Under the pieces are notes generated by a model. That model ran no database searches and was not told the origin of the DNA. It saw only the letters and a program-made list of their open reading frames with translations. DNA of 35,413 bases from Candidatus Kuenenia stuttgartensis (lineage in GTDB: Bacteria > Planctomycetota > Planctomycetia > Pirellulales > UBA1268), in contig CAMBSN010000024.1 in the NCBI GenBank assembly GCA_945870505.1, positions 1-35,413 on the forward strand. The letters run 5' to 3'. The translations under genes were made by a program, and so were the position numbers. Within the stretch, counting starts at the first letter, position 1, and each line of letters begins with the position of its first letter. Positions 9,083 to 13,918 of the stretch are shown here, in pieces.

Positions 9083-9094
9083 TGGTTTCCTGTA

Positions 9095-9241
9095 GCGTAG
9101 GTTTTCAACCTGCGCTGCACCACGCTGGCTGCGCTTCGGCACAGGTTGCCAACCTGTGCTACGTGGTTCCTTGTAGCGTAGGTTTTCAACCTGCGCTGCA
9201 CCACGCCGGATGCCGCTTCAGCGCAGGTTGAAAACCTACGC
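9095..9241. repeat. Cluster of four 21-nt palindromes (9-3-9 hairpins)
   Basis: Copies lie at 9095-9115, 9139-9159, 9176-9196 and 9221-9241. Each has two 9-nt arms and a 3-nt loop with core AGGTTnnnAACCT; the second (GCACAGGTT/AACCTGTGC) pairs perfectly. The first and third are identical within a roughly 35-nt direct repeat that continues to CACGC, and the fourth is their exact reverse complement. The cluster fills the gap between two convergent genes, so it may work as a bidirectional terminator or be a REP-like element. Confidence 0.9.
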
Positions 9242-9255
9242 TACGTCCGGAGATG

Positions 9256-9278: not shown

Positions 9279-10403
9279 TCACTCGTGCTTGCCGAGCCAC
9301 TTCTCGAGGATTCGCTCGCGCGTGCCGTCTTCCCGCATCCGCAGGATCGCGGTGTTGAGCTCCTCGCGGAGCGGGCTGCCGTTGGGCAAGGCGATGCCGA
9401 AGTCGAACGACTCGAAGATCGGTCCGACGACTGTCAGGCCGTCGCTGCCCATCTGCTTGATCACGAACATCAGCGACTCATTCTCGCCCACCACTGCCTC
9501 GACCATGCCGAGCGAGAGCGCCTCGAGCGCGTCGTGGACGGTTGCATACTCCCGGACGATGCCTCCCCGCTGCGTTGCGCAGGTGGCCGCGACGGAGGCC
9601 GTCTGGCAGCCGACGGTCCGGCCCGCCAGGTCGCGCGGGCCGTGGATGACGCCCGTGACCTGCTCGGCCGTCATCGTGGCGGTGAGGACGCTCGTGAACG
9701 CCGCCAGTAGGCCGATGCCCCCGACCATCCACGCGAAGGCGATGAGCCGCCCCACCGGGCCGTCGACGTGCTTGTCGTCGCACCCACCGGTCACAATCGT
9801 CGAGGCGATCCACCACATCGACTCGATCACACCCCGAGGATACTCCGGCGGAAACGACCCCGGGTTGTGGGACCGCTCGGCCCACCAGAGCAGATGCCCC
9901 GAGAGCAGTGCCAGCGCGAGCACGACTCCCGCGAGCGCCAGCAACTTCCAGGAGAGCAGCGAGCGGATCGCCGCCAAAAAGCCGGTGTCGTTTTTCTGCC
10001 GCACGGCCAGCCGGAGGCCCGAGTGAAAGACGGAATGCGTGAGGTCGAAGATTCGTTCCCGCTCCTCGGTGATCGCCAGCGGGCCCAACGAGACGTCCAC
10101 GTCTCCATCCTTGACCACCGTCATGAGTTCCATGAACGTCCCTTTGCGGACGTACTCGGTGGTGAGGCCAAGCCGCCGGGCGAGTTCCTCCCAGATGTCG
10201 ATCATGGCGCCGAAGGGCTTGTCCCCAGAGAACTCGACGGCCGTGGCGATTGGGGCAACCGCCACCTGCAGTCGCTTGCCGGCCAGGGGACGTGCTTCCA
10301 CCATCGCTTCGGGATCAGCCGCGCTGCCGATGCCGGTGCCGCTGCAGGCCACGCAGACAACCGCCAGCCCGATCCAACGGAGTGCTGTCGATAACGCGCC
10401 CAT
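9279..10403 (-). CDS. Prokaryotic ionotropic glutamate receptor-like, ligand-gated channel (GluR0-like)
   Basis: The 374-aa product has a signal peptide (IGLAVVCVACSGTGIGSAA) and then a solute-binding fold split by a pore module. Lobe 1 (about 44-138) includes ITEERERIFDLT, where R115 matches the ligand-carboxylate arginine. TM1 (about 153-174) leads to a pore loop with SMWWIAST, residues 195-202, and then TM2 (about 219-243, IAFAWMVGGIGLLAAFTSVL). Lobe 2 follows, with AVVGENESL likely contacting the ligand amino group. This order is that of GluR0-type channels. The filter reads TGGCDDK (205-211; DNA 9771-9791) where K+-selective relatives have TVGYGDK, so ion selectivity is uncertain. ATG 10403 shares one base with the stop of the upstream permease (TGATG), giving translational coupling and fixing the start. 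Ligand is unknown. Confidence 0.88.
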   Translation of the reverse strand: MGALSTALRWIGLAVVCVACSGTGIGSAADPEAMVEARPLAGKRLQVAVAPIATAVEFSGDKPFGAMIDIWEELARRLGLTTEYVRKGTFMELMTVVKDGDVDVSLGPLAITEERERIFDLTHSVFHSGLRLAVRQKNDTGFLAAIRSLLSWKLLALAGVVLALALLSGHLLWWAERSHNPGSFPPEYPRGVIESMWWIASTIVTGGCDDKHVDGPVGRLIAFAWMVGGIGLLAAFTSVLTATMTAEQVTGVIHGPRDLAGRTVGCQTASVAATCATQRGGIVREYATVHDALEALSLGMVEAVVGENESLMFVIKQMGSDGLTVVGPIFESFDFGIALPNGSPLREELNTAILRMREDGTRERILEKWLGKHE

Positions 10404-12595
10404 CACGTGACGTGTGTTTCCAGGTGGCTTTTCTGTCGGGCGAGGGCCAGCAGTGCGGCCCCGATGACGAGACATCCTAACGCAGTTCCGACTGCCCAAG
10501 GAGGCAGGCCCAGCGTGGAGATGTTCAGGGAGTCGAGTTCCTCCGGCGAGGCGGCCGCGACCAGCAGCACAGGCGTCGCATTGTGGACGGCATGAGCGAC
10601 GATGGCCGGCAGGATGCTCCCGGTCGCCAGCACGAGCCCGCCGAGGACGAGCCCCATCACGAACGTCTGGGGCATCCGCTCGGGGAGCAGGTGAAAGGCC
10701 GCGAAGGCCGCGGCCTGGGCGACGACCGCGATCGCGGCGCGTCGTCTCGTGGGCCGCGATCCGACGAAGGCCGACAGGACCCAGCCGCGAAAGAAGAGTT
10801 CCTCGCAGACTGCGGGCATCACGGCGAGGGCCAGCACGGTGGCCCAGGTCGGGCTACGCTGGATCAGGTCGACGATCTGGTCGGCGAATCGCCGGGCCTC
10901 GGGAGAAACCTCGCCCCGCCAGGCGGCGAGCGCCACGGCAGCGCCGACGACGAACAGCCCGCCACCGAGGAGAGCGGCCCCGGCGAGTGCGGCTCCCGCC
11001 CGAGGCCATGAGCCGCCGGGCAGGCGGATCGCAAACGTGTGGCGGGCATCGACCCGCTGCCACCAGGCGACTGCCAGAAGCGGCAGGAGCACGGCCACGG
11101 CCTGCTGGACGATCAGCGCCGGAACGAACTCGCCGGGCGCGAGTCCCTGGGCGTACCAGAGCGCCGCGAGTCCCACGACCACGGCGCCACATCCCTGCCA
11201 GACGGTCGGCACGACACGGTGGGGCGGCCGCCGGAATCCCCGCGTCGCCTCCTCGGGGCCTCGGAAGAGGATCTCCTCATTGGCCACGATCTGCGCCGTG
11301 ACGGCGAGGAGCAGCCAGGTGAGCGCGAGCGACGAGACGACGGAGATCGCGAGAGCGACGGGAAGTTCCATGCTGGATTGCGGGGATGCAGCGTCCACGG
11401 TTTGACGAACATGGCCCCAGCCTCCGAAAGTCGAGAGCATCGATTTCGCCACCGCGACGTGGCCGGCGAAGGGCACGGCCGGCAGCCAGCGACGGCCCTC
11501 CACGCCTGGGACGAGGGCCACACCCGCAAGCGCAGCGATCAGCATCACCACGGGTGTGAGCGTGTTTTGGGCCTCCTTAGCGCTCTTGGCCGCCGCCGTG
11601 ACCGTCAGGCACAGGGCCGACGCGACCGCAGCGAGGCCCGCATAGGCGATGAGCGTGAGCAGCCCGCAGGCGGCGAGGTCGCCCGCCCGCAGACCAGAGG
11701 CAAATCCACCAGGGAGAAAGCGACCGAGCACCGTCGAGGTCAGCGCGATCGAGATCGCGTTGGCTGCGAGCGTGGCGAGGGTCACCGCGAACACCGCCAG
11801 GAACTTTCCCGTTACGACGTCGAACATCGGGCACGGGGCGATGAGTAATGTCTCGATTGTGCCCCGTTCCTTCTCGCCGGCGATGGCGTCGATCGCCGGG
11901 TAGAAGGCCCCGGTCGCGGTGAGCAGGGCGAGGAGCACGAGCACTGCCGCCGTGGCTGCCGGAAGGATTTCGCGGACGGCTGCCGCCGAGCCTTGCGGCA
12001 CGTCGCCGGTGAAGGTGACCCGCAGCGGCTCCATCAGGCTCGCTGGCAGGCCGGCGCGGCGCAGACGAGTAAGGCGGGCCTCGTCAGCGAGGCCCCGCAT
12101 CACGACGAGCACGTTCTCCTTCACCCGGCGATCGGATGGCCGGACGGTCGAGAGCCGTACGTCGAGCGGCAGGGTGCCGGCGCCGTCGAGCTTCGACAGG
12201 CTGCCACTGGGAACGTCGATCCAGGCATCGGCGGCCCCCTCGTCAATCAGCGATTGGGCCGACTGCGGATCGACCACCCGCGCGGTGATGGTCTCAGGCC
12301 AGCCCCCAGGCTTTCCTTCCTCGCATTCGGCCAGCATGCCGATCCGGATCGCGAGCAGCTCTGCGTTGGTGCCGGAGAAGACGAAGTCGAGCCGCTGCGA
12401 CTCGGCCCGACGGTCGAGTTCGAAGATCGCCGTACGGATGCCCAGCGTGCTGGAGAGCGCCAGCAGCGGATACATCGCCATCGGCATCACGAGCGTGATA
12501 AACAGCGCCCGCCGGTCGCGGATGAACTCGAGCAGATCACGGCGGGCGATCGCCAGCCGGGCAGGCCACCCGCCGGTTGGATGCGGTGATCTCAC
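10403..12595 (-). CDS. NatB-like ABC-2 permease fused to CPBP intramembrane protease
   Basis: The 730-aa product is a fusion. The N-terminal part begins IARRDLLEFIRDRRALFITL, has one membrane span, a large extracytoplasmic loop, then a membrane bundle with DAIAGEKERGTIETLL, typical of NatB/ABC-2 exporters. The C-terminal part carries CPBP (Abi) motifs: EELFFRG (E598, E599, R603), AFAAFH (H635) and HAVHN (H668, N672), which would form the metal site of a Rce1-like membrane protease. This permease/CPBP fusion is recurrent in Planctomycetes. Its GTG start overlaps the ATPase stop (GTGA) and its stop overlaps the channel start, so the three genes are one translational unit. Substrate is unknown; Na+ export is only suggested by the NatB resemblance. 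Confidence 0.9.
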   Translation of the reverse strand: MRSPHPTGGWPARLAIARRDLLEFIRDRRALFITLVMPMAMYPLLALSSTLGIRTAIFELDRRAESQRLDFVFSGTNAELLAIRIGMLAECEEGKPGGWPETITARVVDPQSAQSLIDEGAADAWIDVPSGSLSKLDGAGTLPLDVRLSTVRPSDRRVKENVLVVMRGLADEARLTRLRRAGLPASLMEPLRVTFTGDVPQGSAAAVREILPAATAAVLVLLALLTATGAFYPAIDAIAGEKERGTIETLLIAPCPMFDVVTGKFLAVFAVTLATLAANAISIALTSTVLGRFLPGGFASGLRAGDLAACGLLTLIAYAGLAAVASALCLTVTAAAKSAKEAQNTLTPVVMLIAALAGVALVPGVEGRRWLPAVPFAGHVAVAKSMLSTFGGWGHVRQTVDAASPQSSMELPVALAISVVSSLALTWLLLAVTAQIVANEEILFRGPEEATRGFRRPPHRVVPTVWQGCGAVVVGLAALWYAQGLAPGEFVPALIVQQAVAVLLPLLAVAWWQRVDARHTFAIRLPGGSWPRAGAALAGAALLGGGLFVVGAAVALAAWRGEVSPEARRFADQIVDLIQRSPTWATVLALAVMPAVCEELFFRGWVLSAFVGSRPTRRRAAIAVVAQAAAFAAFHLLPERMPQTFVMGLVLGGLVLATGSILPAIVAHAVHNATPVLLVAAASPEELDSLNISTLGLPPWAVGTALGCLVIGAALLALARQKSHLETHVT

Positions 12596-13329
12596 GCGGC
12601 ACCTCCGCCGATCGTGGCGAAGAAGGCTTCCTCGAGTCCTCCGGGCCGCCCGGCGACGAGTTCCGCCCGGCTGCCTGCGGCGACGATCCGGCCGGCATCG
12701 ATGATCACGAACCGGTCGCAGCGATGCTCGATCTCATGGAGGCGGTGGGTTGAGACGAGGATCGTGCGGCCTTCGGCCCGGAGGCTCTGCAGCATGGCGA
12801 ACAGGTCGCGAGCACCGACCACGTCGAGGGTGCTGGTCGGCTCGTCGAGGACGAGTGCCGGTGGGTCGTGGACGAGCGCCCGCGCCAGCGAGACCCTCTG
12901 CCGCTGGCCTGACGAGAGGCGGCCGCAGGGCCGGTCGAGAAAGCCTTCAAGGTCAAGCGATGTGGTCAGCGACGCGATCCGGTCGGCGAGGAGTTGTCTG
13001 TCGATGCCATGCAGGCGGCCGAACGAATCGAGAACCTCATGGGGTGAGAGCCGGTCGGGAACGCCAGTCGTTGCCGACACGTAGCCAAGGCTGCGGCGCA
13101 CGCCGATGGGGTCGGTGCGGACGTCATAGCCCGCGACCCGCGCCATTCCCGACGTCGGCGTCAGAAGCGTCGCCACGATCCTCATCGTGGTGGTCTTTCC
13201 GGCGCCGTTTCCGCCGAGCAGGCCGACCATCTCGCCGTCGGCCACATCAAACGAGACGCCGTCCACGGCCCGCACGGTCTTCCCGCCGCCCGCGCGATAT
13301 TCCTTCACGAGATCACGGACCTCGATCAT
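12592..13329 (-). CDS. ABC transporter ATP-binding protein (NatA-like)
   Basis: The 245-aa ATPase has Walker A GGNGAGKTT (K45), signature LSSGQRQR, Walker B ALVLDEP and switch histidine in STHRLHE. The start MIEVRDLVKEY at 13329 is chosen because it matches the family N-terminus; longer in-frame extensions would run into frr. It begins 28 nt after the frr stop, so it may be cotranscribed with the ribosomal block. Its stop overlaps the start of the permease/CPBP gene by 4 nt, identifying that protein as its membrane partner. Confidence 0.93.
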   Translation of the reverse strand: MIEVRDLVKEYRAGGGKTVRAVDGVSFDVADGEMVGLLGGNGAGKTTTMRIVATLLTPTSGMARVAGYDVRTDPIGVRRSLGYVSATTGVPDRLSPHEVLDSFGRLHGIDRQLLADRIASLTTSLDLEGFLDRPCGRLSSGQRQRVSLARALVHDPPALVLDEPTSTLDVVGARDLFAMLQSLRAEGRTILVSTHRLHEIEHRCDRFVIIDAGRIVAAGSRAELVAGRPGGLEEAFFATIGGGAA

Positions 13330-13357
13330 CGGCGGCCTCGCGCCGCCCGCGGGAAAA

Positions 13358-13918
13358 TCACTGCTCCATGACCTCGGCTTCCTTCGTTCTCGCGAGGTCG
13401 CCGACACTTCCCTCGTACTTCTTCGTCAGTTCCTGAACGTCTTCCTTGCAGCGGTCGCAATCGTCTTCCGTGAGATCGCCGTCGCCCTTCTCGGTGTCGG
13501 CCGCCTTGTTGGCATCGCGGCGGACATTGCGGATCGCGACCTTCGCTTCCTCGGCGAGGTCGCGGATCCGGGCCGACATCTTCTTGCGGACGTCGGCCGA
13601 GAGAGGGGGGATCACGATCCGGATCAGGCGACCGTCGCTCTGGGGGTTGAGGCTCAGGTCGCTCGCCTGGATGGCCTTCTCGATGTCTTTGATCGTGGTG
13701 GGATCAAAGGGCCGGACGACGATCTGGTTGGGCTCGGGGGCACCGACGCTCGCCAGCGCCTTGATCGGCGTGGGGGAGCCGTAGACCTCGACGCGGAGGG
13801 TGTCGACGAGGCCGGGGTTGGCCCTGCCGGTGCGGATTCCGGTGAGGGAGTGGCGGAACACGTCGACCGCCTTCTCCATGCGTTCTTCGGCGTCGAGCAG
13901 AATGTCGTCGAGCGGCAT
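13358..13918 (-). CDS. frr: Ribosome recycling factor
   Basis: The 186-aa length and sequence fit RRF: RMEKAVDVFRHSLTGIRTGRANPGL at the N-terminus (residues about 13-37, three-helix bundle), YGSPTPIKALASVGAPEP and DPTTIKDIEKAIQ in domain II, then SADVRKKMSARIRDLAEEAK and VAIRNVRRDANK in the returning helix. It splits post-termination ribosomes with EF-G. AGGAG precedes the ATG. It is the last gene of the usual rpsB-tsf-pyrH-frr order, separated from pyrH by 355 bp holding repeats, so it may have its own promoter. Confidence 0.98.
   Translation of the reverse strand: MPLDDILLDAEERMEKAVDVFRHSLTGIRTGRANPGLVDTLRVEVYGSPTPIKALASVGAPEPNQIVVRPFDPTTIKDIEKAIQASDLSLNPQSDGRLIRIVIPPLSADVRKKMSARIRDLAEEAKVAIRNVRRDANKAADTEKGDGDLTEDDCDRCKEDVQELTKKYEGSVGDLARTKEAEVMEQ

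Follow-up and report, generated by a model that had tools for sequence, protein, structure and literature searches.

What kind of pore, if any, does a bacterial glutamate receptor form when its potassium filter has been replaced, and with what other proteins does such a receptor work? The bacterial ancestor of the animal glutamate receptors is usually modelled on GluR0, which has a potassium filter. A different filter is encoded in the window, i.e., the whole stretch of 35,413 nucleotides analysed here, by a gene for a protein of 374 amino acids (aa) resembling an ionotropic glutamate receptor (iGluR), which lies on the minus strand (9279..10403, with its ATG at 10403) and reads TGGCDDK in place of TVGYGD. 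The reading preferred here, with a probability of about one half on sequence comparison and structure prediction, is that the protein would be an amino-acid-binding, probably non-K+ cation channel acting as a module of a NatAB-like ABC exporter.

Architecture of the receptor

In a Pfam scan, the best match of the protein is SBP_bac_3 (residues 51-372, E 6.5e-22), and inside this span lie two further families, namely Lig_chan (residues 161-271, E 2.6e-11) and Ion_trans_2 (residues 191-245, E 2.6e-6), all three above their cut-off. An AlphaFold2 model built on an alignment of 37 rows (mean pLDDT 79, pTM 0.58) predicts the succession of a lobe, M1, a P helix, M3 and a lobe, i.e., the S1-M1-P-M3-S2 layout. 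From the model, the M1 helix is placed at residues 152-176 (9876..9950), the re-entrant P helix at residues 190-204 (9792..9836; up to residue 205 as a helix in the model) and the M3 inner helix at residues 216-249 (9657..9758), all on the minus strand as for the two ligand-binding lobes. The latter were delimited from Pfam, the model and the alignment, namely S1 at about residues 43-141 (9981..10277), with invariant T112 and R115, and S2 at about residues 250-374 (9282..9656), with an acid, E307. Among the PDB matches of the model returned by Foldseek, the best 50 of 1989 were animal-type iGluRs (AMPA, kainate, delta), headed by 7qhb_B, an open-state AMPA chain (TM 0.64 by model length), and the best whole-protein sequence match of known structure was 2pyy, the ligand-binding part of a bacterial receptor homologue. 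Pfam domains, model and Foldseek matches thus agree on the GluR0-like architecture proposed in the initial annotation, and the predicted fold makes the protein a homologue of bacterial iGluRs, with an inverted two-helix pore inside a two-lobed clamshell.

The protein shares with GluR0 of Synechocystis, a group 1 receptor, both this layout, devoid of M4 and of an amino-terminal domain, and the arginine and acid of the binding lobes. In prokaryotic iGluRs, an S1 arginine and an S2 aspartate hold the ligand (PMC2950845). As the alignment is read here, R115 (37 of 37 rows) and the acid at 307 (37 of 37 rows, 33 E and 4 D) would correspond to this ligand-holding pair, the acid being mostly Glu in the present set.

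The filter and its conservation

Translation confirms the position given to the filter in the initial annotation, the codons of TGGCDDK (residues 205-211) occupying 9771..9791 and being read from 9791 to 9771 on the minus strand. By phmmer, the receptor (WWIASTIVTGGCDDK) aligns gap-free to KcsA (WWSVETATTVGYGDL), with TGGCDDK in the columns of the KcsA TVGYGD; as such, its identification as the filter stretch holds, and so does the loss of the potassium signature, the TVGYGD of GluR0-type group 1 receptors being absent from the aligned columns (PMC2950845 for the potassium filter of GluR0). With the S1-M1-P-M3 segment as query, five phmmer alignments place the same stretch on QQGCD of GluA4 and GluA3, and by alignment to AMPA receptors Thr205 falls at the Q/R site and Asp209 at the +4 site. 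Since it aligns with the GCD of AMPA receptors, TGGCDDK need not be a degraded filter.

Over the 37 alignment rows, G207, C208 and K211 never vary, an acid (27 D, 10 E) occupies position 209 and hence the +4 site in 37 of 37 rows, and the remaining positions vary within narrow limits, i.e., T 27, A 8 and S 2 at position 205, G 31 and S 6 at position 206, D 21 and N 16 at position 210. With a mean majority fraction of 0.84, the filter is better conserved than any other part of this alignment; the eight further regions that are sufficiently populated reach 0.56-0.74, the P helix coming second, in a set partly retrieved with the filter motif itself and therefore biased toward it. In a whole-protein search, [TS]GGC[DE][DN]K was found in 21 of the 21 family loci covering the pore, the window's own included. 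The initial annotation would have been refuted by TVGYGD in close homologues together with a frameshift here; instead, close homologues share GGC[DE] in these 21 loci. A frameshift or a pseudogene is ruled out, as the reading frame and the filter are kept in relatives and codon changes fall mainly at third positions (16/8/63 and 29/28/84 changes at codon positions 1/2/3 versus the two nearest relatives); the filter codons themselves differ from those of these two relatives by synonymous changes only. In one relative, an in-frame TAG interrupts the receptor copy (L009, L035).

Replacement of TVGYG abolishes potassium selectivity. Given a filter of the form [TSA][GS]GC[DE][DN]K in place of TVGYGD, the potassium selectivity of the receptor has most likely been lost, to judge from the residues. 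Selectivity cannot be predicted from sequence alone, according to PMC3483616, and an aspartate at the +4 position from the Q/R site is required for polyamine regulation in GluA2 and in a placozoan receptor, according to PMC12226733.

Distribution of receptor and filter types

A whole-protein search of 40 genomes, 25 of them from the window's family (its own genome included), detected the gene in 20 of these 25, and a profile search gave a match in 56 of 72 genomes of the family, the filters of most of these resting on the profile match without a fresh reading. A scan of 84,980 species genomes yielded 52 loci, of which 50 carry a planctomycete or unnamed-bacterium label and two belong to Chthoniobacterales; the filter could be read in 51, all of which fit [TSA][GS][GS]C[DE][DN]K, in a set biased by the use of the filter motif as one of the two patterns of the scan. 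The sole filter among these 51 without a glycine preceding the Cys is TGSCDDK (L045).

At the level of the order, 50 of 246 genomes match, namely 42 in the window's family and eight in two other families; a TVGYGDK copy is present in each of these eight, joined in four of them by a tandem copy that reads LLGHKG. In the window's own family, two genomes likewise hold a second receptor with TVGYGDK (L205, L206). A potassium-type filter characterises 24 of the 26 pore-readable loci retrieved over the phylum, the window's excluded; taken together, the more distant loci read in planctomycetes and Verrucomicrobiota carry it in 40 of 46 cases. In Verrucomicrobiota, 20 loci comprise 16 of potassium type, one GGC (in the genome used as centre), two GGADNK and one other, the GGADNK receptors (L127, L128) being without the Cys that marks the GGC type. 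From viral contigs, a single weak fragment was obtained. In other planctomycetes, tandem receptor pairs (L197-L200; L094 with L095) combine a TVGYGDK copy with a copy bearing LLGHKG or similar and, from their sequences, look as if they served heteromeric channels.

Ger et al. (2010, PMC2950845) had already described, as group 2, bacterial receptors whose P regions were unrecognised and not of the potassium type. The window receptor is like them in its non-potassium-type P region, a comparison made by description, as the main text of PMC2950845 gives no filter sequence. Ten plasmid-borne relatives retrieved from 89 records (cyanobacterial, alpha- and gammaproteobacterial) have neither GGC[DE] nor a potassium filter and differ from the window receptor in carrying SGKSPKRKN, GQDVT, TRGPFNYF, etc. 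Six alphaproteobacterial ones (L112, L113, L116, L118, L119, L120) have a basic filter region (e.g., SGKSPKRKN, SGRTARKN) and, where annotated, are named as transporter substrate-binding proteins. Searches of the open-access literature turned up no report of a GGC[DE] filter in bacterial receptors.

Origin of the filter

In a tree of 95 rows computed with the filter masked, the planctomycete GGC and SGC receptors, together with the one TGSC, form a single branch of 39 rows (support 100/96), and the Chthoniobacterales pair (L075, L080) groups outside this clade with the GGADNK and alphaproteobacterial types. A single origin is compatible with the data for GGC and SGC (AU p 0.277) and also with GGA added (0.335).

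The likeness to animal AMPA receptors GluA1-4 consists in GC(D/E) at the aligned filter columns and in the acid at +4. Unlike AMPA receptors, the window receptor, with M1, P and M3 only in its 374 aa, has neither M4 nor an amino-terminal domain, Thr, Ala or Ser stands in place of Gln/Arg at the Q/R site, one extra residue follows the filter, and the remaining pore is not especially close. Special common ancestry with AMPA receptors, by which the GCD filter would have been inherited, was raised by a profile of the GGC-clade pore, whose best 60 of 422 PDB sequences were all glutamate receptors (AMPA subunits or chimeras throughout, where a subtype was named), and it would also account for the alignment of the filter columns. 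The corresponding profile of potassium-type bacterial pores found potassium channels only among its best 60 of 581 PDB sequences, but scored GluA4 higher than the GGC-clade profile did (46.4 versus 42.8 bits), and more so with the filter columns masked (48.3 versus 37.1 bits). By these profile scores, the overall pore is not closer to AMPA receptors than potassium-type bacterial pores are; the likeness is local, and AMPA ancestry was dropped as highly improbable. Since the pore outside the filter shows no such closeness, the AMPA likeness appears confined to the filter and convergence is the likelier explanation. The bacterial GC(D/E) clade as such provides a small natural system in which to ask how a potassium filter becomes one of another kind, and whether evolution arrives readily at the filter solution of AMPA receptors.

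The exporter-protease gene and its fusion to the receptor in relatives

The ATG of the receptor gene has one base in common with the TGA of a gene on the same strand (10403..12595) encoding a protein of 730 aa, which Pfam resolves into an ABC-2 permease and a CPBP (Rce1-like) intramembrane protease domain (residues 583-673; 10577..10849, minus strand) and which is fused in frame to the receptor in relatives. Directly upstream of this permease gene lies that of an ABC transporter ATPase (12592..13407, minus strand), whose best NCBIfam match, DrrA, is below its cut-off. The permease gene, preceded by an ATPase gene, is of the kind known from ABC_perm_CPBP (NF041647) and NatAB exporters; the window protein differs in falling below the curated NF041647 cut-off, its 392 bits (over positions 6-634 of a model of 636) comparing with the 435 required. 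PMC11466899 lists NatAB of B. subtilis as sodium export; for the window permease, a NatAB function would follow by family resemblance only.

Over the 52 homologous loci, permease-protease and receptor share one uninterrupted reading frame in 25, and the receptor lies directly downstream of the permease-protease gene in 19. A fusion was called from an in-frame permease match without intervening stop; the length of the open frame alone was insufficient because split genes in this GC-rich DNA also occupy long frames. In 15 of the 19 adjacent loci, a mechanical reading finds an in-frame start (ATG or GTG) overlapping the permease stop, and in the remaining four the first start comes 2 to 68 bases past it. 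The tie is not obligatory, since eight of the 52 loci have no permease match within the flank covered and, within the window's family, receptor and permease gene are on separate contigs in G003, G018 and G022 at least. Over 41 rows, the fused, split and none states (17/16/8, none referring to no permease match in the flank covered) change eight times.

The permease family itself occurs in 57 of 60 relatives at E 1e-20, and an ATPase gene stands beside the permease in all of the 30 best-scoring permease loci; the ATPase-permease pair is old and general as far as these sequence matches indicate. In the same 30 loci, a receptor match was found in none of the 22 outside the window's family versus five of the eight inside, and among the loci read the permease match accompanies only receptors of the GGC/SGC clade. 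Searches of the open-access literature turned up no report of a bacterial glutamate receptor tied or fused to an ABC exporter, nor anything on Planctomycetes together with ionotropic glutamate receptors or on an ABC permease with CPBP in Planctomycetes, and none of the titles found there on fusions of CPBP and ABC transporters concerns a receptor fusion. The window receptor gene, by its overlap with an exporter-protease gene and the fusions in relatives, differs from that of GluR0, for which the partially available source text mentions no exporter tie.

In all three fused proteins examined, Pfam recognises the permease, the protease, the binding lobe and the channel, and in 15 of 15 aligned fused proteins the CPBP residues EE...R, H and H...N, which we take to be catalytic, are invariant. 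In one fused pair (L066 versus L067), the pore differs by 4/0/27 changes at codon positions 1/2/3 and at 4 of 115 residues, which points to a strongly constrained pore. Of the four parts compared in this pair, the linker shows the least conservation (22 of 85 residues differ), and it keeps a third-position bias (13/12/26 changes, and 2/2/10 for L066 versus L065). Two hydrophobic stretches were recognised in the linkers of fused proteins by eye and by a hydropathy scan, which flagged the second in some fused proteins, not all. This second stretch looks like an internal signal sequence, which fits with the position of both GluR0 termini outside the cell (PMC13099474). Because of this stretch and of residues predicted with low confidence that link CPBP to the receptor lobe, in a fused-protein model itself of low confidence (pTM 0.40) and used for secondary structure only, the fused protein may be cut after translocation, signal peptidase separating the CPBP part from the receptor.

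Proposed function and alternatives

The GluR0 likeness, the filter and the lost potassium signature stand from the interpretation in the initial annotation, which had left out the alignment to the AMPA GCD, the already known group 2 and the link to an exporter-protease. The predicted fold, the filter sequence, its conservation and that of the ligand-contact columns, the gene overlap and the fusions are read from the data, whereas the role proposed next, with co-transcription, conduction, selectivity, ligand, formation of a complex and physiology, is our inference. The receptor would be the module that gives a NatA-NatB(CPBP)-like exporter, with which it would be co-transcribed or fused, sensing and a leak; an amino acid in the periplasm would close the lobes and thereby open a non-potassium cation pore, and pore opening would link either the entry of ions or the signal of the ligand as such to the exporter. 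The filter is expected to be wider, with a small residue at the site equivalent to Q/R and with rings of Cys and, at +4, of acidic residues, and should pass monovalent cations, perhaps divalents. More tentatively, a ligand-gated cation channel would have been built into an ATP-driven exporter, its AMPA-like GC(D/E) filter having evolved independently, and an outside amino acid would control a leak-and-pump or pump-and-cleave unit, i.e., one polypeptide of permease, protease and channel in relatives and overlapping split genes in the window.

In the main rival reading, the receptor would serve the exporter as an amino-acid sensor in the periplasm that does not conduct; ligand closure would be relayed to the permease or to the CPBP protease and the pore would be a structural relic. 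Domains resembling substrate-binding proteins are often fused to transporters, and the fusion or adjacency of the receptor to the exporter, together with the vanished potassium signature, is in keeping with such a sensor; however, filter and then P helix are the most conserved regions, albeit in the motif-biased set, and the strong constraint on the pore in the L066/L067 pair argues against a relic, which would be expected to drift. This rival is possible though doubtful. A channel selective for divalents or metals (Ca2+, Mn2+ or a thiophilic ion) by means of the Cys and acidic rings would explain why the Cys and the +4 acid, followed by a second D/N, are kept in 37 of 37 rows, but is unlikely, AMPA receptors being non-selective with an identical GCD filter and none of the neighbouring genes scanned (ATPase, permease, RRF, UMP kinase, EF-Ts, A2M family, DUF480, DUF202) being metal-specific by name.

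That the protein is an ordinary binding protein of an ABC importer, anchored in the membrane, which is how such genes are commonly annotated, is suggested by its top Pfam match, SBP_bac_3, and by the label 'transporter substrate-binding domain-containing protein' on plasmid relatives. ABC-2 permeases are exporter-type. The lobes are, however, interrupted by two helices and a P loop, with Lig_chan above its cut-off, and the adjoining gene encodes an ABC-2 permease, not an amino-acid importer, so that, on receptor architecture and exporter-type neighbour, this candidate is rejected as very improbable; genes labelled as substrate-binding proteins can thus be channel homologues. The fusion of the receptor to ABC exporter and CPBP protease in relatives gives a concrete lead to the wiring of a non-potassium bacterial receptor.

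An intergenic repeat

Between the receptor gene and a convergent DUF480 gene, the 26-base sequence GTAGCGTAGGTTTTCAACCTGCGCTG is present three times in positions 9083-9244, twice in direct and once in inverted orientation. When two mismatches at most are allowed, the first 25 bases of this sequence occur at 17 sites of the genome, compared with 0 for the reversed control.
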